DNA from: Alphaproteobacteria bacterium
Lineage (GTDB): Bacteria > Pseudomonadota > Alphaproteobacteria > Caulobacterales > Parvularculaceae
Length of the DNA stretch: 64,000 nucleotides
Assembly: GCA_016125455.1 (NCBI GenBank)
Contig: WGLS01000007.1
Location: 124,001-188,000 of the forward strand
Direction: 5' to 3'
Positions 11,923-38,618 of the stretch are shown piece by piece. Below the pieces are notes generated by a model. That model had not been told where the DNA came from and searched no databases. It worked only from the letters and a program-made list of their open reading frames with translations. The position numbers and the translations under genes were made by a program. How positions within the stretch are numbered: the first letter of the stretch is position 1; every line of letters begins with the position of its first letter.

Positions 11923-12573
11923 ATGTCACCAATATTGCCGCTGACGCTCGCTCACCTGCTTGTCTTTGTCTATTGGCTCGGCGGCGACGTCGGCGCATTC
12001 CACGTCGCGACGTTCCTGACAAAGGACGACGTGCCGGCCGACCGACGACTCTTCGCCGCAAGGCTGCTTGGCGACATCGACATGGCGCCGCGAACCTCCC
12101 TCGTGCTCGCGTTTCCGACCGGTCTAGCCCTTGCCGTTGCGAAAGGCTGGATAGCGGTCCCGCCATTGCTCGTCGCGGCGCTCTTCGGCGCGGCAATCTT
12201 CTGGCTCGCGATCGTCTGGCGACTGCACCTTTCGTCCGGGGATGGATGGTTGAGATCGCTGGATCTGGCTATCCGTTGGGTCGTCCTGGCGGCGCTCGCA
12301 GCATTTGGCGTCGCGAGCCTTGCAGGTCTTGCGCCGGCACCGACATTCATCGCCCTGAAGTGTCTTGCGCTCTGCGTCGCCATCGCCTGCGGCATTGCGA
12401 TCCGCAAGGTCGCGACGCCCCTCGGCCCGGCCTTGGCGAACCTTGCGGTCGGCGAGGACGCCAACGCCCTCCAGGAGATTCGAGGCATACTCGCGCGCGC
12501 CCGGCCGCTTGTCCTGCTGATATGGGCAATGCTGATTATCGCGGCTTCGCTCGGCGTCGCGAAACCTGGATGA
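11923..12573 (+). CDS. multi-pass membrane protein, paralogue of the one at 42293
   Basis: A 216-residue protein with about five or six membrane helices. Its first helix carries LAHLLVFVYWLGGDVGAF, closely matching [17 protein letters not shown] in the protein at 42293, so the two are paralogues within the same island. The early His next to YWLGG(D/E) recalls CopD/DUF2269-type membrane proteins, where such His residues may bind haem or metal; that link is inference. It sits between the YciI-like gene and the flavin oxidase, 21 and 40 bases away. Confidence 0.75.
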   Translation: MSPILPLTLAHLLVFVYWLGGDVGAFHVATFLTKDDVPADRRLFAARLLGDIDMAPRTSLVLAFPTGLALAVAKGWIAVPPLLVAALFGAAIFWLAIVWRLHLSSGDGWLRSLDLAIRWVVLAALAAFGVASLAGLAPAPTFIALKCLALCVAIACGIAIRKVATPLGPALANLAVGEDANALQEIRGILARARPLVLLIWAMLIIAASLGVAKPG

Positions 12574-12613
12574 AGGACGCTTCGTCAATTGCCCGCCATC
12601 CGGGAGCTGCTTG

Positions 12614-14269
12614 ATGGGCGGCGTTGGGAAAAACATGCTTGACGCCGGCTTTCGCGAGGCGATTGTCAGGATCGTGGGGACGAATGGCTACTCCGATGAC
12701 ATCGCCTTGCGTGAGCTTTACAGCCACGACATCTGGTCGAAGGGAGCGACGGCTGAATTCGTCGTTGCGCCGGCGTCGACGATGGAGCTGTCCGGCGTCG
12801 TCGCGGCGGCAGCTGCCCGGGAGATTCCTCTTTTTCCGCGCGGCGGCGGCATGTCGTACACGAATGGCTATTTGTCCTCGACGCCGGGCGGCGGCGTAGT
12901 CGATTTTTCGCGTCTTAGCAGGATAGTCGAGGTGAATGCCGCCGACATGTACGTGACAGTCGAAGCCGGCTGCACGTGGGATACGCTGAATTCAGCGCTG
13001 GCAGGGCAAGGTCTCCGTACGCCATTCTGGGGCCCGCTCTCCGGAATATCTTCGACAATCGGCGGCGGTCTGTCCCAGAACAACGCGTTCTTTGGCGCAG
13101 GGGTTCATGGGCCGACATCCGACAGCGTGATCTCGCTCGCCATCGTGACGGGCGAAGGCGACATCATCCGTACCGGCACGGCTGGCGCGGATGGGGGCAG
13201 GCCGTTCTGGCGTCACTATGGTCCGGACCTTGCCGGCTTGTTTCTCGGCGACGCCGGCGCGCTCGGCTTCAAGGCTGAGGCGACATTGCGCCTCGTTCCA
13301 GCGCCTTCGCACGAAGACTGGGCGAGCTTCGAATTCAAGGGCCGCGACGCATGCGCCGATGCGACCGCTGCAGTGGCGCGACAGAACGTCGCCTGTGAAG
13401 TCTTCGCATTCGATCCCAATCTCCAACGGGTACGAATGAAACGCGCTTCGCTTGCAGCGGACGCGAAGAGCCTTGCGAACGTGGTAAGAAAGCAAGGCTC
13501 GGTGTTCGGCGGCTTGAAGGAGGGTGCAAAGATCGCCCTTGCCGGGCGCAGCTTCATGGCAAACGCCGCATATTCACTTCACTTCGTCGTGGAAGGTCCT
13601 TCGAACGCAGGCGTGCGTGAAAATATCGCCTGTCTGAAACGCATCTGCGAGACGCATGGCGGCCGCGAAATCGAAAACTCGATCCCGAAGATCATCCGGG
13701 CAAATCCTTTCACGCCGCTCAACAACATGCTGGGCCCATCGGGCGAACGCTGGACCCCTGTGCATGGCATCGTGCCACTTTCGCAAGGGTCTGCGACATG
13801 GCGCGAGATCGACGATCTCTTCGACAGCATGCAGCAAACGTTCGATCGGCACGACATTCTGACAGGCTATCTCGTCACGACGCTCTCAACGAACGGCTAC
13901 CTGGTGGAGCCCGTCTTCATCTGGCCTGAAGAGATCTTCCCGGTCCACGAAGCATCAGTCGAACGATCGTGGCTTGACCGTTTGCCGCGCCACCCGGCGA
14001 ACCCGGAGGCGACGGCCGTTGTCGCCGAAGCGCGGCGGGCGGTGATTGACGTATTCAAGCGACGCGGCGGCGCGCACTTCCAGATTGGCCGGACCTATCC
14101 CTTTTTCGAGACGCGTTCTCCGGAGGCGCGCGCGCTCCTGATGACGCTGAAGCAAGCTCTTGATCCAAAAGGGATCGTCAATCCGGGCGCGCTCGGCCTT
14201 GCCGGAACAAACGCCAGATTGACCGGCGCAAGGAGTTTGACGCCGACAGACAAGGAAGATGCCCCATGA
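12614..14269 (+). CDS. FAD-binding (PCMH/vanillyl-alcohol-oxidase type) oxidoreductase
   Basis: A 551-residue flavoprotein starting at ATG 12614, with GGGAG 7 bases before it. The FAD-binding PCMH half contains EFVVAPASTMELSGVV, FPRGGGMSYTNGY, VTVEAGCTWDTLNSAL and SSTIGGGLSQN. The C-terminal half ends GRTYPFF...ALKQALDPKGIVNPGALG, typical of FAD_oxidase_C proteins such as 4-cresol dehydrogenase, vanillyl-alcohol oxidase and D-lactate dehydrogenase. The substrate is unknown; an alcohol, amine or 2-hydroxyacid are options. It overlaps the VOC gene by 4 bases (ATGA), so it is part of the operator-site-1 operon. Confidence 0.87.
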   Translation: MGGVGKNMLDAGFREAIVRIVGTNGYSDDIALRELYSHDIWSKGATAEFVVAPASTMELSGVVAAAAAREIPLFPRGGGMSYTNGYLSSTPGGGVVDFSRLSRIVEVNAADMYVTVEAGCTWDTLNSALAGQGLRTPFWGPLSGISSTIGGGLSQNNAFFGAGVHGPTSDSVISLAIVTGEGDIIRTGTAGADGGRPFWRHYGPDLAGLFLGDAGALGFKAEATLRLVPAPSHEDWASFEFKGRDACADATAAVARQNVACEVFAFDPNLQRVRMKRASLAADAKSLANVVRKQGSVFGGLKEGAKIALAGRSFMANAAYSLHFVVEGPSNAGVRENIACLKRICETHGGREIENSIPKIIRANPFTPLNNMLGPSGERWTPVHGIVPLSQGSATWREIDDLFDSMQQTFDRHDILTGYLVTTLSTNGYLVEPVFIWPEEIFPVHEASVERSWLDRLPRHPANPEATAVVAEARRAVIDVFKRRGGAHFQIGRTYPFFETRSPEARALLMTLKQALDPKGIVNPGALGLAGTNARLTGARSLTPTDKEDAP

Positions 14270-17014: not shown

Positions 17015-17911
17015 TTACTCCGCCGCTTCCTTGCGTTCGCCGTCGTACCTCATCGCCCTCTCAAGCAGGTCTGGCGTGCCGATCAGCGCATTCAGCTGAT
17101 CGAAGTCGAACATCCGGTCACTGTAGGCCCGTGAGGACCCGTCGCGTAACAGCGTTGCAAGAAAATCGGTCGCCGCAAAGGCGTAGACCCGAGCCAGCGC
17201 ACCCGGAGCGATGACGAGGGAATATCCCATCGCGCCAAGCTCCTCCGCCGGCTTGATTGGCGTTCGACCCCCCTCGACCATATTGGCCACAAGGGGGATG
17301 CGCGCTGCAAACGCGTCCGCAGCGCTTCGCAGTTCGTCCTCGGTTCGCAATGCCTCAATGAACAGGGCGTCAGCGCCGGCTTCGAGATAGCGGGCCGCTC
17401 GGTCGAATGCCGCGGCGACGCCTTCAACCGCCAGCGCGTCGGTTCGCGCAATAATCAGGGTGCGCCCATCGCGACGCGCATCGAGGGCAGCGGCAATCTT
17501 GCCAACCATCTCATCAGCTGGAATTACGCTTTTGCCGGCGAGATGCCCGCAGCGCTTGGGCATGCGTTGATCTTCGATCTGGATGGCGGCGGCGCCGGCG
17601 CGCTCAAGGACGCGCACCGTGCGCTCCACGTTGATTGCGTTTCCGAAGCCCGTGTCCGCATCGACGATGATGGGAATGGACACGCGGTCGGCGATCCGCG
17701 CGGCGACGTCCGCGACCAGGGTCAAATCCGCAAACCCTACATCGGACCGTCCGAGTTGGGTGTAGGAGACAGACGCGCCGGACAGATAGCATGCGCCCGC
17801 GCCAGCCTGTTCCGCGACGAGCGCAGACAGCCCATCGAACACGCCGGGCGCAAGCAGTGCGCTCACACTTGTGTGGCCGCCGCCTGGCTTCGGCAGCTCA
17901 AGAAACGCCAT
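17015..17911 (-). CDS. isocitrate lyase/PEP mutase superfamily C-C lyase
   Basis: A 298-residue member of the family that includes 2-methylisocitrate lyase, 2,3-dimethylmalate lyase and oxaloacetate decarboxylase-like enzymes. The catalytic loop is PKRCGH (C121), the lyase signature, and the Mg2+ site is VDADTGFG (D84, D86). This makes a lyase much likelier than a PEP mutase. Expected chemistry is retro-aldol cleavage of a 2-hydroxy-dicarboxylate giving pyruvate or glyoxylate. It is divergent from the aldehyde dehydrogenase with operator site 2 in between, so both are probably co-regulated. Confidence 0.88.
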   Translation of the reverse strand: MAFLELPKPGGGHTSVSALLAPGVFDGLSALVAEQAGAGACYLSGASVSYTQLGRSDVGFADLTLVADVAARIADRVSIPIIVDADTGFGNAINVERTVRVLERAGAAAIQIEDQRMPKRCGHLAGKSVIPADEMVGKIAAALDARRDGRTLIIARTDALAVEGVAAAFDRAARYLEAGADALFIEALRTEDELRSAADAFAARIPLVANMVEGGRTPIKPAEELGAMGYSLVIAPGALARVYAFAATDFLATLLRDGSSRAYSDRMFDFDQLNALIGTPDLLERAMRYDGERKEAAE

Positions 17912-17979: not shown

Positions 17980-19401
17980 ATGGCCCGCATTCTGACGGCG
18001 CGAAACCCGTTGACCGGCGCGTCCGACTACTCGTTCGCGGCGCCATCTGCCGACGAAATGGCGGCGGACATTGCCACGCTGCGGGCGCGTCAGCCGGCCT
18101 GGGCGGCGCTGCCGCTTGCGGAAAGGGCGGCGACGCTTCGCCGTTTTGCCGAGGCGATTCGCGAACGACGCCCCGCGATCGAGGCGGCGCTTGCCGCCGA
18201 CACCGGCCGGCGGGCGATCGCCGCTTCTGAAGTGGATGGCGTTCTGGCCAGTATCGAAAGGTGGATCGCCGTCGCCGGGGAGGCCCTCTTGCCGTCGCGC
18301 CGGCCCGCACAGGCCCTGCAAAATGTCGAGCTGATTTCAGAGGGAGATCCGATCCCGGTGATCGGCGCGATTAGCCCCTGGAACTTTCCGCTGCTGCTTG
18401 CGTTCGTCGACGCCCTGCCGGCCCTGATCGCCGGTTGCTCCGTCTATATCAAGCCGAGCGAAGTGACGCCGCGTTTCGCCGTGGCGATCGCGGAAGCGAT
18501 AGAGGCGACGCAGAACCTGAGCGGGGTGCTCCGTATACGGCCTGGAGACGGCGAAACTGGCGCAAATCTCGTCGAACAAGTGGATGCCGTCGCGTTCACG
18601 GGAAGCGTCGCAACAGGACGCAAGGTGGCGACCGCCGCAGCCGCGGCCTTTATCCCGGCATTCCTGGAGCTTGGCGGGAAAGATCCGGCCCTAGTTCTCG
18701 AGAGCGCCGATATCGACCGCGCAACGACAGCATTGTTGCGCGCGTCGACGGTCGCTACCGGACAGGCTTGCCAGTCAATCGAACGGATCTACGTCGCTGC
18801 GCCGATCTTCGACGCGTTCGTCGGGATGTTGAAGGAAAAAGCAATAAACGCCTCCCTGACGTGCGATGACCCCGCAAACGGGATCATTGGGCCACTGATA
18901 TTCTCGCGGCAGGCTGAAATAATAGCTGCACAACTGGCCGATGCCGTCTCAAAGGGCGCGCGCATTCACTGCGGCGGCGAGATCATCGAACGCGGCGGGC
19001 TCTGGATCGCGCCGACCGTCGTCACCGGCGTTGCGTCAACCATGGCGATCATGACGGAGGAGACCTTTGGCCCGATCATGCCGGTGCTGCCGTTTAGCGA
19101 CATTGAAGAGGCGATTCGGCTTGCAAATGACTCCGTTTACGGCCTTTCAGCGAGCGTCTTCGCCGATACGGAAGACGAGGCCCTGGCCGTGGCGCGCCGA
19201 CTGGAGGCGGGCGGCGTATCGATCAACGATGCTGGCCTGACAAGTTTTGTCTTCGAAGCTGAAAAGAGCGCCTACAAACTGTCAGGAATGGGGCCGTCGC
19301 GCATGGGGCCGAACGGACTGAGCCGCTTCCTTCGTCGCAAGGCCTATTATGTGAACCGAGGCGCGGTCATGCCGCTCTCGGCGTTCGGCGAACGCGGATA
19401 G
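17980..19401 (+). CDS. NAD(P)-dependent aldehyde dehydrogenase family protein
   Basis: A 473-residue ALDH oxidising an aldehyde or semialdehyde to an acid. AAAGGA precedes ATG 17980. Landmarks are GAISPWNFPLLLAF, KPSEVTPRFAV, AFTGSVATGRKVA, the general-base Glu in LELGGKDPALVL, the catalytic Cys in TGQACQSIERIYV, and EETFGPIMPVLPF. The substrate cannot be told. It sits alone on the plus strand, with operator site 2 before it and a convergent DUF1330 gene after it. Confidence 0.9.
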   Translation: MARILTARNPLTGASDYSFAAPSADEMAADIATLRARQPAWAALPLAERAATLRRFAEAIRERRPAIEAALAADTGRRAIAASEVDGVLASIERWIAVAGEALLPSRRPAQALQNVELISEGDPIPVIGAISPWNFPLLLAFVDALPALIAGCSVYIKPSEVTPRFAVAIAEAIEATQNLSGVLRIRPGDGETGANLVEQVDAVAFTGSVATGRKVATAAAAAFIPAFLELGGKDPALVLESADIDRATTALLRASTVATGQACQSIERIYVAAPIFDAFVGMLKEKAINASLTCDDPANGIIGPLIFSRQAEIIAAQLADAVSKGARIHCGGEIIERGGLWIAPTVVTGVASTMAIMTEETFGPIMPVLPFSDIEEAIRLANDSVYGLSASVFADTEDEALAVARRLEAGGVSINDAGLTSFVFEAEKSAYKLSGMGPSRMGPNGLSRFLRRKAYYVNRGAVMPLSAFGERG

Positions 19402-19472: not shown

Positions 19473-19955
19473 TCCTGCAGCCGGGGCGCCTTCGACGAGG
19501 AAGACGTCGAACGCGCCCCAGTTATTTTCGACGCGCGCCTGCTTGAGCGGCGCATATTCCGGAGAATCCCAGAACGTCCTGGCCGCGTCCATCGACGGCC
19601 ACTTCGAGATGACATAGCTCCCGAAGTCCGCATCGCCTTCGAGAATCTCCCGGTTGCGGCCAACCGCGAGATATTCGCCGCCGTACTTTGCGTAGATCGG
19701 CGGCATCTTCTGGGCGTAGCCGGAAATGAATGCTTCACGGTCATGGACGTCGCCAATGACGATAAGATAGGCCGGCGCCGTGGCGGGCGCAGGCGGCCGA
19801 TCGACAGCTGCCGCGTCGCCTGCAGATTTTTCGTTGGACGTCTCGCCACCGAATGACATTCCGCCTGGCGCAGGGACGACCCCCGCGGAGATGCCTGCCC
19901 ATATGCCGGCCGCGCCAATGACGACGCCAATAATGCCGCCAACAATTCCACTCAT
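19458..19955 (-). CDS. membrane-anchored DUF1330 family protein
   Basis: A 165-residue protein starting at ATG 19955, which overlaps the symporter stop as ATGA; longer frames are rejected because they lie inside the symporter. The N-terminus is one hydrophobic segment (IVGGIIGVVIGAAGIWAG), then a low-complexity linker, then a DUF1330 domain (AYLIVIGDVHDREAFISGY to YAPLKQARVENNW), a dimeric alpha-beta barrel fold. DUF1330 proteins have no settled function. The pairing with a solute symporter is notable. Confidence 0.82.
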   Translation of the reverse strand: MSGIVGGIIGVVIGAAGIWAGISAGVVPAPGGMSFGGETSNEKSAGDAAAVDRPPAPATAPAYLIVIGDVHDREAFISGYAQKMPPIYAKYGGEYLAVGRNREILEGDADFGSYVISKWPSMDAARTFWDSPEYAPLKQARVENNWGAFDVFLVEGAPAAGPPVK

Positions 19956-21409
19956 GCCCCGATGACCTCCTGCTTTGCGCCTGCGGCAAGCGGCCGTCCG
20001 TCGCCAGCGCGACCGGCGGCCTTTGAAAAGATGAATACGATCGCCAGCCCAACGACCCATGGAAGAATGCGTTCCCGCCAAGCGCCAGGTCCGGACGGCA
20101 GGAACTGATTGAACAGGACAGCAACGCCGAAACCACACGTCATGGCGGCGAGTATGGCGGCGCCATGTGGACGCCGGCCCGATACCCGGGCGACGATCGT
20201 AGGGCCGAACGCAGCGCCCAGCGCCGTCCACGCGAACAGGACGCGGGAAAAGATCGAAGACGGAAGATAAAGCGTGAGCGCGACGGCAAGGCCGCACAAC
20301 GCAAGAATTGCCACGCGGGTCACCAGAACCTCGCGTCCCGGGGCAATGCGGGCCACGCCGAGGTCATGGCTCGCGGTCGCGGACGCGACGAGAAGCTGCG
20401 CATCGACGGTTGACATGATGGCGGACAGTATCGCCGCGGACACGAGGGCGGGGAAAACGCCGGGCAGAACCCGGCCGGCCATGTCGAAAACAATTGTTTC
20501 GCCGAGCGACGCTCCCGGCTCCGCGAGCGCGCGAGCGGACAATGCAATGACCGACATGCCCGCATAGACGAGCGCGCCCCAGGCGATGGCGACCGCAGCG
20601 CCCTGCCGGCGAGCGGCGTCATCCTTGACGGCCATAATCCATGTCAGCAGATGGGGTTGCCCGAGCGCGCCGCTGCCGATCGCCGCGATGCCGACGACAA
20701 ATCCGAAGGCGGACCAACCGGCGTGGACGCCGAGCGGCGCGGCGAAAGCTGGCGATTGAGAAGCGATGGCTGCGCCAATGCCGGACACGCCGCCCGCAAC
20801 GATGAACGCCGCCGCAGGCATCGTCACTGCAATCAGCAGAATCGAAAGCCCCTGCAACGTATCGGTGATGCTGACCGCCCAGAAGCCGCCGAGAAGCGTA
20901 TAGAGGAGGATGATCCCGGCACCGACGATTACTGCGGTACGCTCATCAATCGGGAACGCCTCGGCAAGCGCGGCCCCAGCGCCCTGAAACTGCGCCGCGA
21001 TGTAGAACGAAAAGCAAAACACGATCATCGCGGCGGCGATCAGCTTTATGGGCCGGGCGGCCGTTCCTGTGTCCGCCGCGACAAAGTCGAGGGCCGTCAG
21101 GAAGCCCCGTTCCCGCGAGGTTCGCTGGAGAAAGGGGCCCATCCAGAGCCAGACCGCAGCGTATCCGGCAAGAATGCCCGGGACCATCCAGAGGGCGGAA
21201 ACCCCGACCGTCGCCACGAATCCCGTGAAACCAAGCAGCACCCACGCAGATGACGTAGACGCCGCATAGGCCAGACCGGCGACGACCGGGCCGAGCGAGC
21301 GGCCGCCGAGGAGAAAATCTTCCTGCGTGGCGGCACGGCGACTGGCCCACATGCCGACACCGAGTAGGCCAAGCATATAGAGGATGAGCACCAGGCCGGT
21401 GACTGACAT
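19952..21409 (-). CDS. sodium:solute symporter (SSS/PutP family)
   Basis: An inner-membrane Na+-coupled importer of 485 residues with about 13 helices. Family landmarks are FLLGGRSLGPVVAGL, YAASTSSAWVLLGFTGF, FIAAQF-like YIAAQFQGAGAAL, GGFWAVSITDTLQGL and SAIMSTVDAQLLVASA. The substrate is probably a carboxylate or amide but is not defined by sequence. It is divergent from the isochorismatase-like operon, sharing the intergenic region with operator site 3, and is followed by the DUF1330 gene with a 4-base overlap. Confidence 0.88.
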   Translation of the reverse strand: MSVTGLVLILYMLGLLGVGMWASRRAATQEDFLLGGRSLGPVVAGLAYAASTSSAWVLLGFTGFVATVGVSALWMVPGILAGYAAVWLWMGPFLQRTSRERGFLTALDFVAADTGTAARPIKLIAAAMIVFCFSFYIAAQFQGAGAALAEAFPIDERTAVIVGAGIILLYTLLGGFWAVSITDTLQGLSILLIAVTMPAAAFIVAGGVSGIGAAIASQSPAFAAPLGVHAGWSAFGFVVGIAAIGSGALGQPHLLTWIMAVKDDAARRQGAAVAIAWGALVYAGMSVIALSARALAEPGASLGETIVFDMAGRVLPGVFPALVSAAILSAIMSTVDAQLLVASATASHDLGVARIAPGREVLVTRVAILALCGLAVALTLYLPSSIFSRVLFAWTALGAAFGPTIVARVSGRRPHGAAILAAMTCGFGVAVLFNQFLPSGPGAWRERILPWVVGLAIVFIFSKAAGRAGDGRPLAAGAKQEVIGA

Positions 21410-21510: not shown

Positions 21511-22203
21511 ATGTCGTTGAGATTCGAGCCAACCATGGCGACGCCGGGCAAGACGGCGCGCGAAATCTACTTGGACGTACAGGCAAACCCCGCCCGCGCC
21601 CGCTTCGGCTTTGGCGACCGGCCAGCCGTCGTGAATATTGACGTGCAACAGGCGTATACGCGCCCCGACCTGTTTCCCAGGACGGCCTACGTCACCGACC
21701 CCGACCAGATCGGGCGCATCAACGAGATTTCCCGGCTCGCGCGATCGGCGGGCATGCCGGTCATATGGACCCAGGTCGCTTACAAGGCTGACGCCGGCGA
21801 CGCCGGCGTATGGGGCACACGGACTGATACGCCGGACAGTCTGCAGAATATCAAGCATGGTTCCGATCGCCATCAGCTCGACCCTCGTTGCGACGTCGTG
21901 GCCGAGGTGGACTTGATCTATACGAAGCGAATGCCAAGCGCTTTTTTCGAAACTCCGCTTGCGAGCTATCTCGTCTGGCACAAAGTCGATACGGTCATTT
22001 TGACGGGCGGATCGACCTCTGGCTGCGTAAGGGCGACCGCCGTGGACAGTCTCTCCCATGGCTATCGGACGATCGTTCCTGAAGAGTGCGTCGCTGACAA
22101 ACACGAGAGCTACCATTTCGCCAACCTGACGGACCTCCAGCTGAAATACGCCGACGTGGTCAAGGCAGCGGAAGTTGTCGACTGGTTCGCACGCCGCCGA
22201 TAG
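21511..22203 (+). CDS. isochorismatase-family amidohydrolase (N-carbamoylsarcosine amidase/maleamate amidase-like)
   Basis: A 230-residue cysteine hydrolase. The catalytic triad is visible: D44 in NIDVQQAYTRP, K139 in IYTKRMPSAF and C172 in GGSTSGCVRATAVD. The cis-peptide segment before the Cys fits the family. Relatives hydrolyse N-carbamoylsarcosine or maleamate, that is, linear amides of small acids, which would suit removal of ammonia from a half-amide after an imide ring is opened. GGGAGG precedes ATG 21511. First gene of a four-gene operon with two NodB-fold hydrolases and a nitrilase-like protein. Confidence 0.87.
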   Translation: MSLRFEPTMATPGKTAREIYLDVQANPARARFGFGDRPAVVNIDVQQAYTRPDLFPRTAYVTDPDQIGRINEISRLARSAGMPVIWTQVAYKADAGDAGVWGTRTDTPDSLQNIKHGSDRHQLDPRCDVVAEVDLIYTKRMPSAFFETPLASYLVWHKVDTVILTGGSTSGCVRATAVDSLSHGYRTIVPEECVADKHESYHFANLTDLQLKYADVVKAAEVVDWFARRR

Positions 22204-22205
22204 TT

Positions 22206-23174
22206 ATGGCGAAGGAAACGCACGAAATGCAACCTGATCCAAACCTATACGATTACTGGCCGTACAAGGACCGACCCAGGATCGTGTGGCCGGGAGGCAA
22301 GAAGCTTGCATTCTGGATCGCGCCGAACATCGAGTTCTATGAATTTGACCCTCCGACAAACCCTTTGCGGCCGAGCTGGCCGAAGCCAACCCCCGACGTC
22401 GTCGGCTACTCTCAGCGCGACTGGGGAAACCGCGTCGGACATTGGCGCCTGATGGAGCTGCTCGACAGGCGCGGCCTTCGCGGCTCGGTATCGCTCAATG
22501 TGGCGATGTGCGATCACTGCCCGGAAATCATCGACGCCTGCAAGGTCCGTGGATGGGAGTTCTTTTCCCACGGCATCTACAACACCCGGTTCTCATACGG
22601 CATGACCGAGGCGCAGGAGCGCGCCGTCATCGAAGACTCCATAAGGACCGTCGAAAGCGCGACAGGCCAGCGGATCCGGGGATATCTTGCGCCAGCCCTG
22701 ACCCATACGGAGCGAACGCTCGATCTTATTGCAGAATATGATTTCTGGTACACTTGCGATCTGTTCCAGGACGACCAGCCCCAACCTGTCAAGACGCGGT
22801 CGGGCAAGCTCATTTCGATGCCCTACTCCCTCGAGGTGAATGACGTGATCGCATATGGCGTCCTCGCGATGGATCCGTGGGCGTACGCCGATGTCCTGAA
22901 GCGGCACTTCGACCAGCTGCTCGAGGAAGGCGAGGACAGCGGCACGGTCATGTGCATTCCGCTGCACGCATACCTCGTAAGCCAGCCGCACCGCATTCGC
23001 GCCTTTGAAGACGCAATAGCGCATATCACGTCGCATAAGGACGACGTTTGGTTTGCCACCGGCGCCGAGATCGCCGGCCATTTCCGCGATCATTCATGGG
23101 ATTCTACCCTTGCGGACATTTCGCGCCGCGGCCTGCTGCGGCCGGGGACCGGCTTTGGCGGAGGCGCGGCATGA
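22206..23174 (+). CDS. PuuE-like NodB-fold (polysaccharide deacetylase superfamily) hydrolase, copy 1
   Basis: A 322-residue protein starting 2 bases after the previous stop. It is not a cell-wall deacetylase by context: no signal peptide, and it resembles the metal-independent allantoinase PuuE and cyclic-amide hydrolases. Landmarks are YSQRDWGNRVGHWRLMELLD, SLNVAMCDHCPEII, EFFSHGIYNTRF (the His of the NodB HxxxH region) and RGYLAPALTHTERTLDLIAE. Expected chemistry is opening of a cyclic amide or imide ring. It overlaps copy 2 by 4 bases. Confidence 0.85.
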   Translation: MAKETHEMQPDPNLYDYWPYKDRPRIVWPGGKKLAFWIAPNIEFYEFDPPTNPLRPSWPKPTPDVVGYSQRDWGNRVGHWRLMELLDRRGLRGSVSLNVAMCDHCPEIIDACKVRGWEFFSHGIYNTRFSYGMTEAQERAVIEDSIRTVESATGQRIRGYLAPALTHTERTLDLIAEYDFWYTCDLFQDDQPQPVKTRSGKLISMPYSLEVNDVIAYGVLAMDPWAYADVLKRHFDQLLEEGEDSGTVMCIPLHAYLVSQPHRIRAFEDAIAHITSHKDDVWFATGAEIAGHFRDHSWDSTLADISRRGLLRPGTGFGGGAA

Positions 23175-24100
23175 CTCTCGATGAAAGCTACCTTGCCTAT
23201 CCGCGGCGCCAGCGCGGGCAGGACATCGAACGTTATGACTGGTCGCCGATGGAGGGCCGCGCCGCAGCAAAGCTTGCAGGCGACGTAAAACTTGCCGTTT
23301 CGATTGTCGTGCCGATCGAGTATTTTCCGCTGACGCCGAGCGGCAAGCCGTTTCGGCATCCGGGCGCGATGGTCACGCCCTATCCGGACCTTCGCCACTA
23401 TACGACCCGCGACTATGGAAACCGGGTTGGCGCCTTCCGTTTGCTGAAGGCTTTCGCCGAGGCTGGCGTCAAGGCGACATTTGCCGTCAACGCAATTCTG
23501 CTTGATCGCTCACGGCCGTTGATTGACGCAATTCTGGCGGACGGCCACGAGATCGCAGCCCATGGATTGAGTACGGATCATATTCATCATGGCGGCCTGA
23601 CAGAAGCGGAAGAACGGGCGTATACCGATAAAACCCGAGCCGCTTTCGAGGCGGCGGGTCTGCGCCCACGCACCTGGATGAGTCCGGCCCGGCAGGAAAG
23701 CACCCGCACGCCGGACCTCGTGAGGGCTGCGGGCTTCGACATTTGCCTCGACTGGGAATTCGACGTTGCACCTGTTGGCCTGCGGACGAGTTGTGGGCCG
23801 CTTGTCGCATTCCCGCTTCTCAGTGAGCTCGACGATCGAACCCTCCTGACCATAAAAAACCATGACGAAAGCCGATGGCGCGACCAGATCATCGAGGCCG
23901 CGAAGTACATGCGCGACGAGGCCGCGACCCGGGGCGCCGAGTGCTTAAGCTTCACGATGACGCCCTATGTGGCGGGCCAGCCGTTCAGAATGTGGGCGGT
24001 AAAGGAAATTCTTGCGGCTTTGGGCGCGATCGACGGCGCAAGCGTCGTACCGGTCGCTACGCACGTCGATAACTTCTCGACAGGGAACCCGCAGCAATGA
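23171..24100 (+). CDS. PuuE-like NodB-fold hydrolase, copy 2
   Basis: A 309-residue relative of copy 1. The start ATG 23171 overlaps the previous stop as ATGA. Landmarks are TTRDYGNRVGAFRLLKAFAE, TFAVNAILLDRSRPLI, HEIAAHGLSTDHIHHGG and WMSPARQESTRTPDLVRAAGF. It is clearly diverged from copies 1 and 3, which suggests a different substrate or that copies 1 and 2 form a hetero-oligomer; both ideas are inference. It overlaps the nitrilase-like gene by 4 bases. Confidence 0.83.
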   Translation: MTLDESYLAYPRRQRGQDIERYDWSPMEGRAAAKLAGDVKLAVSIVVPIEYFPLTPSGKPFRHPGAMVTPYPDLRHYTTRDYGNRVGAFRLLKAFAEAGVKATFAVNAILLDRSRPLIDAILADGHEIAAHGLSTDHIHHGGLTEAEERAYTDKTRAAFEAAGLRPRTWMSPARQESTRTPDLVRAAGFDICLDWEFDVAPVGLRTSCGPLVAFPLLSELDDRTLLTIKNHDESRWRDQIIEAAKYMRDEAATRGAECLSFTMTPYVAGQPFRMWAVKEILAALGAIDGASVVPVATHVDNFSTGNPQQ

Positions 24101-25230
24101 TTGGACGACGCGGCGCAAGGATCGGCCGGCGAGACTTCATCGCCGGCGCAACACTCATGGGAATCGGCATGACGCAGGCCAATGCATCGGGATCGGAACG
24201 TTTCAGCGCGCTTGCGCTGCAGACGGCATGCGACGCCGTCAACCAGGACAAATCTGCGACGGCGGCCCGCAACCGGATGAAAACGTCGATCGGGCGCATC
24301 CGCCAGCAGATTGCCGCGTCGAAGGGCTTCCTGAAGGGCTTCAACGGCTACGACCTTCGTCTCGTTGTCTTGCCGGAGTACTGGATGACGGGCTTTCCCC
24401 TGGGCGAAAGCCGTGACGAGTGGCGCGAGAAAGCGGTCATCGACCTTGACGGCGAGATCCCTGAATTGATCGCCGGAATGGCGAGGGCGTTGAATATCTA
24501 TCTGTGCTCAAATCATTATGAAAATGATCCGAATTTCCCGGATATCTACTTTCAGGCAAACGTTGTTTACGCGCCCTCGGGGGACGTCGCATTGCGCTAT
24601 CGACGGATGATTTCGCTTTACTCGCCGACCCCTTATGACGTATGGGACGCGTATCTGAAGATCTATGGCGAGGACGCGATTTTTCCGGTCGCCGACTCGG
24701 ATATAGGCCGTATCGGGACGGTTGCCAGCGAGGAAATATTGTATCCTGAGGTCGCTCGAATGCTTGGTCTTAAGGGCGCAGAGCTGATCCTGCACCCGAC
24801 CTCCGAGGTCGGCGCGCCCGGACTGACCCCAAAGGACATCGCAAAGCGCGCGCGGGCGCTTGAGAACATCGCTTACGTCATTTCCGCCAACTCCGGACGC
24901 ATCGAAGGCACTGCCGTGCCCGCGGCGTCCACCGACTTCATGTCAAAGATTGTCGACTGGAAGGGCGGCGTCGTGGCTGAGGCCGGAGGCGGCGAGACGA
25001 TGAACGCGAATGCGATCATCGACCTGGACGGCCTTCGCTCGGCGAGGCGCCAGACCGGCATGTCGAATTTTATCAGTCGTTTGCCGACGGCGGCGTTCCG
25101 GAGCGGCTATCTGGAAACCATGGCCCCGACGAACCGCTCGCCGGATGGGCGAATGATCGAGCGCGCGGACGCGATTGCCCAGCAAAAGACGGTCATTGAT
25201 GGGCTCGTAACCCGGGGCGTCATCAAATAG
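24097..25230 (+). CDS. Tat-exported nitrilase-superfamily protein with altered catalytic residues
   Basis: A 377-residue carbon-nitrogen-hydrolase fold protein. The N-terminus IGRRDFIAGATLMGIGM looks like a twin-arginine export signal. Of the Glu-Lys-Cys triad, E94 (VVLPEYW) is present, but the Lys position reads Arg (R170, RYRRMISLY) and the Cys position reads Ser (S211, TVASEEILYPE). Hydrolysis by the standard mechanism is therefore doubtful. I recall similar SEE versions elsewhere, so this may be a subfamily trait. It ends the isochorismatase/PuuE operon and converges on the aconitase-type genes. Confidence 0.82.
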   Translation: MIGRRGARIGRRDFIAGATLMGIGMTQANASGSERFSALALQTACDAVNQDKSATAARNRMKTSIGRIRQQIAASKGFLKGFNGYDLRLVVLPEYWMTGFPLGESRDEWREKAVIDLDGEIPELIAGMARALNIYLCSNHYENDPNFPDIYFQANVVYAPSGDVALRYRRMISLYSPTPYDVWDAYLKIYGEDAIFPVADSDIGRIGTVASEEILYPEVARMLGLKGAELILHPTSEVGAPGLTPKDIAKRARALENIAYVISANSGRIEGTAVPAASTDFMSKIVDWKGGVVAEAGGGETMNANAIIDLDGLRSARRQTGMSNFISRLPTAAFRSGYLETMAPTNRSPDGRMIERADAIAQQKTVIDGLVTRGVIK

Positions 25231-25243
25231 GCGTGCCCCGTTC

Positions 25244-25741
25244 CTACGCCTCGCGCTTCAAGCGACGCTCAAGCAGGGGCACGAGGCCGCCCGCGTCAAG
25301 AATTTGCGCGATTGCAGGAGCCTGCGGCGGGAGTTCAAAGCTTGCGTTCCGCGAACGATTCAATAGTCGCTGTCGCCGCCGGTCCAATTCAACCTCGTCA
25401 CCGTCTGAAACAGCGTCCGTTTCATCGAAAACGATGGCGGGAAGTCCGAGATTTATTGCGTTTCGAAAGAAAATTCTGGCGAAACTCTTTGCAAGGACCG
25501 CCTTGACGCCGAGGATTCGCAGCGAGACCGCCGCTTGTTCCCGGCTCGATCCGAGACCGAAGTTGCGGCCTGCAACAACGATATCCCCAGGCCTTACGCT
25601 CTGCGCGAACTCCGGGTTCACCGCCTCAAGGCAATGACGGGCAAGCTCTTCTGGCGACAATTTCATCAGGCGCCCTGGCGCAAGAACATCCGTATCAATA
25701 TTGTCGCCAAACGCCCATGCGCGCGAAGGACGGTCGGTCAT
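25244..25741 (-). CDS. aconitase-superfamily (LeuD-like) small subunit
   Basis: A 165-residue swivelling subunit of a hydro-lyase of the 3-isopropylmalate dehydratase/homoaconitase/2,3-dimethylmalate dehydratase group. Landmarks are WAFGDNIDTDVLAPGR, FAQSVRPGDIVVAGRNFGLGSSREQAA and KSFARIFFRNAINLGLP. The start ATG 25741 overlaps the large-subunit stop by one base (TGATG), showing tight coupling. Leucine-pathway neighbours are absent, so a catabolic substrate is likelier than isopropylmalate. Confidence 0.87.
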   Translation of the reverse strand: MTDRPSRAWAFGDNIDTDVLAPGRLMKLSPEELARHCLEAVNPEFAQSVRPGDIVVAGRNFGLGSSREQAAVSLRILGVKAVLAKSFARIFFRNAINLGLPAIVFDETDAVSDGDEVELDRRRQRLLNRSRNASFELPPQAPAIAQILDAGGLVPLLERRLKREA

Positions 25742-27045
25742 CAGAGATACTCCCGCGGATCGACGATCTCGCCGGCGACCGCTGAGGCTGCGACGGTATA
25801 GGGCGAGGCCAGATAGACCGACGCGCCCTTGTGGCCCATGCGACCCTTGAAATTGCGATTTGTAGTGGAAATGCAGGTTTCGCCGTCGGCTAACAGGCCA
25901 TGCCCCATGCCGGCGCAAGCGCCGCACCCGGAGGGCAGGAGAATGGCGCCCGCCGCCGTAAGCGTCGCCAGCAAACCGGATGTCGTCGCCCGCTCGGTCG
26001 TGCGCGTCGTCGCTGGCGAAATCAGCAAGCGCACGCCATCGCGAACCTTTCGTCCCTTCAATACAGCCGCCGCCATTTCCAGGTCTTCGTGTTTCGCGCC
26101 GACGCAGGCGCCAATATAGGCTTGGTCAATGGGCGTCGCACTATACTCGGACGCCGGCGCGGCATTGCCGGGGTAATGCGGGGCGGCGACCTGTGGTTCG
26201 AGGGCTGAGGCGTCGTATTTGAAAACGGCTTCATAGTCAGTACCGGGATCGGATCGCCAGTGCGAAAGCATTGAGGCGTCCGCTGTCCCGCCATGGGCGG
26301 TTATGTGATCAAGGGTAGTCGCGTCCGGTTCGATGATGGCGGTATCCGCGCCAAGCTCGGCCGCCATGTTGCAGAGCGTCATGCGTTCGTCCATCGACAT
26401 CGCCTTGACGGTGGGCCCGGCATATTCGAGCACAAGGTTGTGATTCTCGGTGCCGATCTCCCGGGCAAGGAACAACATGATGTCCTTTGCGGATACGCCC
26501 TGAGCAAACATCCCGCTCCATTCAATCCGGCGGGTCGCGGGAACCGAAAGCCAAGTTTCACCTGTCGCAGCGATCGCCGCCATGTCGGTTGCGCCGAAGC
26601 CGGCGATGAAGCAACCGAAGGCCCCGCCATTCGGCGAGTGGCTGTCGCCCCCGGCGACGAGCATGCCGGGCCGCAAAAGGCCATGCTCGGGCATCACAAT
26701 ATGGCTGATCCCGCGCATGTCAAAGAAATGCCCGACGCCGTAATCCCGGACAAACGCGCGAACGTCCTTGAGTATTGCGGCGCTCGCCTCGTCAACGGCC
26801 GGCACGTAGTGGTCCGAGACGATCACCACTCGGGACGGGTCCCACAGGCCAACGCCAAGAGCCTCGAGCTTGGGTCGCCAGCGGCGGGGCCCGCTGGAAT
26901 CATGCGCCATGGCAAGATCGACCTTGACGGTGACGATGTCGCCCGGCGACACGCGCGCCGCGCCAGCAGCCCTCGCGATGATTTTCTCAGCCAGACTCAC
27001 AGGCGCAGGATCGATCATTCTCGGTTTCGGCAACGGGTTCTCCAT
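25741..27045 (-). CDS. aconitase-superfamily (LeuC-like) large subunit
   Basis: A 434-residue Fe-S hydro-lyase subunit. ATG 27045 (MENPLPKPRM) fits the divergent arrangement with the GntR gene; a frame reaching 27285 would overlap that gene and is rejected. Cluster cysteines are visible in IGACVGAK and PSGCGACAGM. Other landmarks are VIVSDHYVPAVDE, GGDSHSPNGGAFGCFIAGFGATD and TNRNFKGRMGHKGASVYLASP. With the small subunit it should hydrate or dehydrate a substituted maleate/malate. Together with the isocitrate-lyase-like enzyme it resembles the dimethylmaleate hydratase plus dimethylmalate lyase pair of anaerobic nicotinate breakdown. Confidence 0.88.
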   Translation of the reverse strand: MENPLPKPRMIDPAPVSLAEKIIARAAGAARVSPGDIVTVKVDLAMAHDSSGPRRWRPKLEALGVGLWDPSRVVIVSDHYVPAVDEASAAILKDVRAFVRDYGVGHFFDMRGISHIVMPEHGLLRPGMLVAGGDSHSPNGGAFGCFIAGFGATDMAAIAATGETWLSVPATRRIEWSGMFAQGVSAKDIMLFLAREIGTENHNLVLEYAGPTVKAMSMDERMTLCNMAAELGADTAIIEPDATTLDHITAHGGTADASMLSHWRSDPGTDYEAVFKYDASALEPQVAAPHYPGNAAPASEYSATPIDQAYIGACVGAKHEDLEMAAAVLKGRKVRDGVRLLISPATTRTTERATTSGLLATLTAAGAILLPSGCGACAGMGHGLLADGETCISTTNRNFKGRMGHKGASVYLASPYTVAASAVAGEIVDPREYL

Positions 27046-36306: not shown

Positions 36307-37467
36307 CTAAACGACGCCATCGCGCCGCATCGCTTCGATTTCCTCTGGCGAAAAGCCGAGACTGTTCAGTACCGCGACCGTATCTGAGCCGTATTCAGGC
36401 GTCGTTGGATCAATGCTCGCGGGTTCCGCCAGAAAGGAAATCGGCGAGCCGACGATCTCGGCGCCATCGGCATCAAACGAAAGCATGCCCCGCGCCGCGA
36501 TCTGCGCATCATCGAACGCTTCCTTCAGATTGAGGACAGGCGCATAGGCGACGTCCTTGTCCGCCAGCCAAGACAGCCATGCGTCGCGCGGCTTCGTTGC
36601 GAACGTGCTGCGAAGGAACGTTCGCAATGGCGCCTGCCTATCTCCCGGCGGCAGCTCGGCGAGCGGCAACAGGTCGAGTCGGCCGAGCGGTTGGAGCAGA
36701 TTCCGCGCGAACTTCACTTCCGCGCCGCCAAGCGCGATCCATTTCCCATCCGCGCACTCATAGAGGTTGTACATCGCGTTTCCGCCCCATGAGCGTTCCT
36801 TTTTCGGCTCATGCGGAAGACCTGTCGCGAATATCCGTCCGGTGACATTTGGCGTCCAGGCAAGGACGCTGTCTAGCATCGCGACATCGAGATAGTCGCC
36901 TTCGCCGGTTTCGCGAGCGCGTAGCAACGCCATGAGCGCCCCCGACAGCGCCGTCAGCGACGCGAGCGCATCGGCGACCGGCATGTGCGGCATCGCCGGC
37001 CTTCCGTCCTGCCCTTCATTGAGGGAGAGGACGCCCGCCTGGGCCTGAACTGCAACGTCGTGCGCTGGCGCGCCTGCCAAGCGACCTGTCTGTCCGTAGG
37101 CAGATATTGAACAGTAGACGACCCTTGGATTCAGCTTCCTCACGGCGTCGTAGTCGACGCTCAGCCTCTTCGCAACGCCTGGGCGGAAGGCCTCGACAAC
37201 GATGTCGACGTCCCGAACGAGGCGCCGGAAAACTTCTTTTCCCGCGTCGCTCTTGAGGTCGAGCGGGAGACACCTCTTGCCGCGGTGAGTGTTGCGAAAC
37301 CAGATGCTTTCGCCATTCTTGCGATAGCCGATGCGCCGGGTCGGCTCTCCCTCGCCGCGGGGCTCAATCTTGATGACATCCGCGCCATGGTCCGCCAGCA
37401 TCAGCGTCATCATCGGTCCCGGCAGAAACAGCGACAGATCAAGCACCCGGACGCCTGTCAGTTTCAC
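36307..37467 (-). CDS. CaiB/BaiF (family III) CoA-transferase, copy 1
   Basis: A 386-residue family III CoA-transferase, starting at GTG 37467 inside the copy 2 stop (GTGA). Landmarks are GVRVLDLSLFLPGPMMTLMLADHGADVIKIEP, RGKRCLPLDLKSDAGKEVF and the catalytic Asp in YLDVAMLDSVLAW. It transfers CoA between organic acids, for example from succinyl-CoA. It ends the CitE-MaoC-ACAD-CaiB-CaiB operon and converges on GntR2. Confidence 0.9.
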   Translation of the reverse strand: MKLTGVRVLDLSLFLPGPMMTLMLADHGADVIKIEPRGEGEPTRRIGYRKNGESIWFRNTHRGKRCLPLDLKSDAGKEVFRRLVRDVDIVVEAFRPGVAKRLSVDYDAVRKLNPRVVYCSISAYGQTGRLAGAPAHDVAVQAQAGVLSLNEGQDGRPAMPHMPVADALASLTALSGALMALLRARETGEGDYLDVAMLDSVLAWTPNVTGRIFATGLPHEPKKERSWGGNAMYNLYECADGKWIALGGAEVKFARNLLQPLGRLDLLPLAELPPGDRQAPLRTFLRSTFATKPRDAWLSWLADKDVAYAPVLNLKEAFDDAQIAARGMLSFDADGAEIVGSPISFLAEPASIDPTTPEYGSDTVAVLNSLGFSPEEIEAMRRDGVV

Positions 37468-38618
37468 GGCTTCCCGCTCCCGTTAAATTGATCAGTATGC
37501 TCACCAAGTTTCGGCGCCCGGCGTCCAGTCGATCGCTTGCCATTCACAATGATTGGCGCTCGCAGCATATCAAGACGGCCTTCGTGCGCATCAGGATGCG
37601 CAACCGCCTCTCGCATGCCGATCGCCGCGACATAAGGATTGTCTAGCGCCGCCTTGAGATCGAGCACGGGGGCGAAGGGGACCTTGCCGCCAAGCAGCTC
37701 GAGCCATTCCTGCGTCGTTCGCCGAGAACAGATCCGGTCAATCTCATCCGTCAGCGCCGCAAGGTTCTTGCGTCGCGCCGGGATTGTCGCGAACCGCTCG
37801 TCAGCCGCAAGATCGCGGGCGCCAGCAAGCTCGCAGAAGGCATCCCAGAACTTCGGCGTCTGGCACATGAGGAGGCCCCAGCCATCCCTGGTCCTGACGG
37901 TCTGCGATGGCGCAATCGAGGGGTGGGCGCCGCGCGGCAGCCGGCCGACGACCTCGCCCCCGTTCATAGCCCACACACCGGGATAGCTTGTCTGGTGAAG
38001 GGCAACGTCGAAGAGCGATACGTCAATATCGCAGCCGATGCCGGTTTCACGCGCCTTGAGGATTGCGGCGACGCAGCCGAGCGCCATCTGCGCGCCGGAC
38101 ATGAAGTCCACCATCGACAAACCAAAGCGAGTCGGCGGCGCGTCAGGCTCGCCGGTGACCGACATGAAGCCAGCCTCGGCCTGCATCAAATAGTCATAGC
38201 CTGGCCAGGCGGCGCGTTCGTTTTGCCGGCCGTATGCGGACAGATGCGCGCACACGATTGATGGCTTGACGGATTTTAGGTCAGCATAGGTCAGGCCCAA
38301 CTTTTCGGGCTGGTCCCCTCGCAGGTTGTTCACGACCGCATCGGCCGTTGAAACGAGCGTCTCAAACGTCACACGCCCACTGTCGGTCTTGATCTCGACA
38401 GCAACCGACTTCTTGTTTCGCGAAAATGTCTGATAGAACTGACTGTCGCCATCGCCGAGGTAGTATGGACCGACGGAGCGGGAGACGTCGCCGCCCATCG
38501 CGGGCGATTCGATCTTGATGACCTCGGCGCCAAGTTCAGCGAGCAGCATCGAACCGTAGGGGCCTGCGCCGTATTGCTCGACGGCGAGAATGCGGACGCC
38601 CTCGAGCAGGTTCAGCAT
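37464..38618 (-). CDS. CaiB/BaiF (family III) CoA-transferase, copy 2
   Basis: A 384-residue second family III CoA-transferase. ATG 38618 overlaps the acyl-CoA dehydrogenase stop by one base (TGATG); longer frames lie inside that gene. Landmarks are GVRILAVEQYGAGPYGSMLLAELGAEVIKIES, NKKSVAVEIKTDSGRVTFETL and the catalytic Asp in DIDVSLFDVALHQ. Two non-identical copies suggest either two different acids or a heterodimer. Confidence 0.9.
   Translation of the reverse strand: MLNLLEGVRILAVEQYGAGPYGSMLLAELGAEVIKIESPAMGGDVSRSVGPYYLGDGDSQFYQTFSRNKKSVAVEIKTDSGRVTFETLVSTADAVVNNLRGDQPEKLGLTYADLKSVKPSIVCAHLSAYGRQNERAAWPGYDYLMQAEAGFMSVTGEPDAPPTRFGLSMVDFMSGAQMALGCVAAILKARETGIGCDIDVSLFDVALHQTSYPGVWAMNGGEVVGRLPRGAHPSIAPSQTVRTRDGWGLLMCQTPKFWDAFCELAGARDLAADERFATIPARRKNLAALTDEIDRICSRRTTQEWLELLGGKVPFAPVLDLKAALDNPYVAAIGMREAVAHPDAHEGRLDMLRAPIIVNGKRSTGRRAPKLGEHTDQFNGSGKP

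Follow-up and report, generated by a model that had tools for sequence, protein, structure and literature searches.

A conserved cysteine-less branch of the nitrilase fold in a putative cyclic-imide degradation operon

A catalytic Glu-Lys-Cys triad is taken as the defining mark of the nitrilase superfamily. The protein NIT (377 amino acids), encoded on the forward strand at positions 24097-25230 of the window, i.e. the whole 64,000-nucleotide stretch of alphaproteobacterial DNA analysed here, raises the question of what a protein of this fold may do when two of the three residues have been replaced. The initial annotation had noted a retained Glu, Arg and Ser at the Lys and Cys positions and a twin-arginine signal on a protein whose operon partners appeared cytoplasmic, and had proposed either a binding protein or a different reaction. 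Because two of the three catalytic residues are swapped identically in every relative examined, NIT probably has a different job, in a pathway that seems to degrade small nitrogen rings. The NIT clade extends a known superfamily by a new branch, and searches of open-licence literature listings brought up no account of a nitrilase branch that lacks the Cys.

Active-site positions of NIT and their conservation

The residue assignment was borne out by the open reading frame, by Pfam and by alignment with PDB chains. NIT matches the CN_hydrolase domain of the superfamily with 90.1 bits (cut-off 23.2), and its best score against the NCBIfam equivalogs for nitrilase, amidase, formamidase and N-carbamoylputrescine amidase is 56.7 bits (curated cut-off 500). 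In the alignment with nitrilase-superfamily chains of the PDB, among which Pyrococcus PH0642-type proteins are the best sequence matches, the general-base Glu is present as E94 (codon at 24376-24378), R170 (24604-24606) falls on the catalytic Lys (YRR against YRK) and S211 on the catalytic Cys (vaSee against miCfd), followed by E212 as an invariant new acid (both codons at 24727-24732; all on the forward strand). These positions are named after the triad and tetrad numbering of the superfamily. An AlphaFold2 model of moderate confidence, built from a 20-sequence alignment (pLDDT 73.5, pTM 0.75, residues 1-32 low), gives a predicted fold that matches the aliphatic amidase 2uxy with a Z score of 30.3 and an rmsd of 4.4 over 290 residues.

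Related genes were collected from 21 loci on named contigs, and whole-genome searches returned homologous matches in 54 of 61 relatives, 36 of 200 genomes of an order sample, 11 of 385 of a class sample and 3 of 398 of a phylum sample. E94, E142, R170, S211, E212 and E213 are unchanged in all 48 intact clade members, which have 55 invariant positions in total; this set is counted without the frameshifted copy L047, the row L006, which repeats the window's own gene, and the four lowest-scoring intact rows (L018, L019, L059 and L062), which carry Glu-Lys-Cys and are the nearest relatives outside the clade. To the initial question whether Ser and Arg are fixed among homologues the answer is thus yes, and the replacements are not due to chance, since S211 and R170 are identical in 48 of 48 rows. 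In the tree, where L059 and the second protein of L106 were flagged as long branches, the 48 E-R-S rows group apart from their E-K-C relatives (support 94/98), and a 33-row subclade contains the NIT of the window (support 100/99). The median dN/dS of the clade, computed from 17 chosen sequences, is 0.045 (45 of 136 pairs with dS below 1.5). Thus, NIT is a conserved protein and no ordinary Glu-Lys-Cys amidase.

Two oddities among the rows may be mentioned. The NIT copy at L047:1573-2810 is split into two pieces by a frameshift on a metagenome contig, and the contig of L042 is labelled Acidobacteria and shows the gene order of Hyphomonadaceae loci, so that it is possibly mis-binned or transferred.

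The operon and its candidate pathway

NIT is the last gene of a forward-strand series in which ISO (21511-22203) and PuuA (22206-23174) are separated by 2 bp and PuuA, PuuB (23171-24100) and NIT are joined by two ATGA overlaps. ISO is an isochorismatase-family cysteine amidohydrolase with N-carbamoylsarcosine amidohydrolase as its best PDB match. PuuA, assigned by family and PDB matches to PuuE-like ring hydrolases of the polysaccharide-deacetylase superfamily, and PuuB both have PuuE allantoinase-like proteins as closest matches. PuuA retains the histidines of SHG and LHA/LHS in all 18 rows examined. PuuB looks degenerate, since 16 of its 18 rows have Thr for the second His and the first His position varies as well.

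Around this series lie a divergent sodium:solute symporter gene (19952-21409, reverse strand), an aldehyde dehydrogenase gene (17980-19401, forward), which in several loci stands beside leaderless NIT relatives, a gene for PEPM, a lyase of the PEP mutase/methylisocitrate lyase family (17015-17911, reverse), a LeuD/LeuC-like hydratase pair (LeuD 25244-25741, LeuC 25741-27000, reverse), and, at 12031-14269 (forward), c10, a hydrophobic protein of no family, together with an FAD-linked oxidase, both of which co-occur with NIT. Recurrent neighbours across loci are the FAD-linked oxidase, a small hydrophobic protein, aldehyde dehydrogenase, enoyl-CoA hydratase, an amidase, a PaaK-like ligase, PrpD-like proteins and a symporter or TonB receptor. 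Elsewhere in the window, another PuuA-like gene lies in the 44382 region (reverse strand; 31% over 286 residues), and at 36307-37976 (reverse) a CoA-transferase family III gene is followed by a separate 170-aa gene that matches only the C-terminal part of that family, a pair kept in L028, L029 and L046.

NIT and PuuA occur together to a large extent. Among the 200 genomes of the order sample, NIT was counted in 33, PuuA in 45 and both in 32 (Fisher p 2e-25, shared ancestry ignored). The 33 are the 36 matches minus three E-K-C-only genomes (G027, G033, G932) and include G858, a partial match, as a putative E-R-S genome without PuuA; in genomes listed without a locus, NIT was assigned by score only. 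The FAD oxidase was found in 31 of the 33 NIT genomes versus 38 of all 200, and PuuA in each of 20 genomes examined individually (19 with E-R-S NIT, plus G393; nine of them also in the order sample). Pathway genes without NIT are found in 13 of the 45 PuuA genomes; NIT is therefore not essential to the pathway. Such NIT-less clusters (L130, L131, L132, L139, L144) retain PuuA-PuuB with PEPM, LeuD and LeuC nearby, a set that we regard as a candidate module for the degradation of cyclic imides or substituted maleates.

The hydratase role assigned to the LeuD/LeuC-like pair follows the chemistry of LeuCD and DmdAB. Together, the neighbouring hydratase and lyase genes suggest the breakdown of a substituted cyclic imide. 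A pathway that opens an imide, hydrolyses the half-amide, hydrates a substituted maleate and ends with cleavage by a lyase would be expected to have such a set of genes. PuuE relatives have been described as cyclic imidases (PMC9304392, PMC3084791). Substituted maleimides and hematinic acid, named as oxidative products of chlorophyll and heme (PMC7318184), could be the substrates of the pathway. A search of the literature by name for a nicotinate-type dimethylmaleate pathway found nothing. If the assumed substrates are correct, the cluster would point to a bacterial way of using small breakdown products of tetrapyrroles; the titles of five papers found on the topic name no bacterial gene cluster for it.

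A second nitrilase-fold family without the Cys was observed at L106:2980-4146 (forward strand) and in L111, L112, L113/L124, L114-L116 and L117. It retains Glu and Lys, has TSSVQ or ISTVQ at the Cys position and carries Tat- or lipoprotein-like leaders. In the order sample 14 of 200 genomes were matched, six of them on the E-R-S gene itself; exclusion of these leaves 8, all among the 33 with NIT. The family is absent from the window's genome. This second family and the degenerate PuuB belong to the same pathway as NIT. In addition, L109:8479-10461 (forward) is a fused open reading frame that combines one nitrilase domain without Cys (PGEDVL) with one canonical E-K-C domain.

The leader and the location of NIT

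The twin-arginine signal reported initially was recovered. NIT carries the leader sequence IGRRDFIAGATLMGIGMTQANA, and by motif its residues 1-30 (GRRDFIAGATLMGIGMTQANA, 24097-24186, forward strand) form a twin-arginine-type leader with RRx(F/L), a hydrophobic stretch and an AxA-type end. The signal is restricted to the 33-row subclade, in which an RRx(F/L) leader precedes the conserved domain in 32 rows, the exception being L042 from the metagenome contig. The 15 deeper rows have no leader at a plausible start, and the single regex match among them (L087) lies far upstream. Because these deeper members are leaderless, export is, as far as leader motifs indicate, a derived trait of one NIT branch, and their state fits an enzyme first and export later. 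NIT itself is presumably exported by Tat.

As for the partners, the genes adjacent to NIT do look cytoplasmic, as had been stated; this does not hold for the wider cluster, since in relatives c16/DUF1838 and c12glx show export signals by eye and TonB receptors are also encoded.

In L033, L034, L035, L036, L038 and L044 an internal ATG (MRYTALALQ or MRYSALALQ) with an AAGGA-like stretch upstream was observed near the NIT start, from which a second, leaderless NIT product might possibly be made. This MRY start was found in Hyphomonadaceae rows and is absent from the NIT of the window.

Possible functions and comparison with known systems

The usual thio-acyl intermediate is impossible for NIT because the Cys nucleophile is absent. 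In a plant relative, replacement of this Cys by Ser 'strongly diminished its reactivity', with the ligand still bound (PMC4812014), and in NIT the Lys is gone as well and an acid follows the Ser; on these grounds the usual chemistry is ruled out with high confidence. Judged by analogy, the plant result would suit a binding protein equally well.

As an explanation of the whole, we put forward a functional Cys-less E-R-S branch acting as a non-cysteine catalyst in the imide pathway, a reading of the sequences to which we attach slightly less than even confidence. The core of this pathway would consist of PuuA as a cyclic-imide-type hydrolase, its degenerate partner PuuB, ISO, the LeuCD-type hydratase and the methylisocitrate-lyase-type lyase. 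In NIT, E94 would serve as general base, R170 might stabilise an oxyanion or enolate, and S211 and E212 might position a water or a proton relay, so that an amide- or imide-like intermediate could be hydrolysed, hydrated or isomerised with no covalent thio-acyl adduct. In the branch of the window Tat export would make this step periplasmic. We infer the catalysis and the substrate class of this step from the residues and the gene neighbourhood.

The strongest competitor, possible if rather doubtful, is a binding protein that takes up a pathway substrate in its old active site, which in the window's branch would lie in the periplasm, and delivers or buffers it with no catalysis. The loss of both nucleophile and Lys agrees with such a role, as do the coupling of export with TonB or symporter genes, the C158S nitrilase-fold mutant that binds putrescine via a water (PMC4812014) and the second exported, partly lipoprotein-like Cys-less family in the same genomes. 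However, E94 never changes, nor do many polar residues of the motifs, and the 15 deeper members, in which binding makes less sense, are leaderless pathway genes; for these reasons we lean towards a different reaction over pure binding.

The catalytic reading can be carried further, to a form that we consider unlikely in its entirety: the E-R-S branch would represent a catalytic type new to the nitrilase fold, in which Glu and Arg would act on a cyclic-imide or amide intermediate by acid-base or water catalysis, without covalent thio-acyl chemistry. It would have been cytoplasmic at first and later periplasmic in one lineage, and its pathway would use substituted maleimides such as those set free from chlorophyll and heme. 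PuuB and the second Cys-less nitrilase family would add two more degenerate hydrolase folds to this pathway.

It is quite improbable that NIT serves as a partner subunit with no catalysis of its own, either for an active nitrilase-family enzyme or for a PuuA/PuuB assembly. The fusion of a Cys-less to a canonical domain in L109, the degenerate PuuB beside an intact PuuA and the overlap of the NIT gene with PuuB are in line with it. However, no CN_hydrolase besides NIT was found on the window's contig, and hence no canonical nitrilase in its cluster, and Tat export would part NIT from cytoplasmic partners unless they were co-exported.

Less probable still, by a clear step, is an amidase of the usual chemistry in which C45 or C137 and a Lys act as substitutes. 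C45 is present in 44 of the 48 rows (otherwise T/V), C137 in 32 (otherwise A/S/G) and K112, K246 and K250 in 46. Yet a search of the 48 rows yielded no invariant Cys column, although other motifs are unchanged, neither cysteine aligns with the catalytic position, and none of the three lysines aligns with the catalytic Lys. At the sequence level the alignment therefore places no other Cys and Lys in the active site, an outcome that would have overturned the initial proposal, and a replacement Cys as a general rule was rejected since C45 and C137 vary within the clade. A decaying gene or a sequencing error is practically out of the question, as nothing in the window's gene speaks for it and only one relative (L047) is frameshift-split, against identical replacements in all 48 intact relatives and the low dN/dS.

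A whole clade under strong purifying selection with Arg and Ser fixed, together with a second Cys-less family, means that the fold has been put to further use in the absence of its nucleophile, and the E-R-S clade offers a natural system for finding what the remaining site can do.

Among known systems, the aliphatic amidases and formamidases (2uxy, 2plq, 5g3o, 2e2k) share the fold of NIT (Z 28-30) and the general-base Glu, whereas NIT has Arg for Lys, Ser for Cys and a Tat-type leader. For the second Glu of the amidase tetrad NIT shows no clear equivalent; by spacing, P177/T178 presumably occupy its place. The Pyrococcus PH0642/PaNit group (1j31, 3ivz), which gives the best sequence matches to the NIT profile (about 53-55 bits), keeps Glu-Lys-Cys, unlike NIT. 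Nearest outside the clade are uncharacterised E-K-C homologues from the same order and class (L018, L019, L062 and the second domain of L059), which share the E142-type motif of NIT and, in part, the SP.D motif that follows the Lys; all have the canonical E-K-C residues, with L018 and L019 at about 32% identity. The C158S mutant of Medicago CPA (5h8k, 5h8l) has, as NIT does, Ser at the Cys position of a nitrilase fold; it is, however, a laboratory mutant with the Lys kept, while in the natural NIT branch Arg also replaces the Lys and a new Glu follows the Ser. In the nicotinate pathway of Aspergillus nidulans, as far as the available text of PMC9304392 goes, the PuuE-related imidase HxnM opens the ring and the amidase HxnN follows, an order of steps that is likewise expected here; that text notes no nitrilase-fold step, and its downstream genes differ from those of the NIT cluster.
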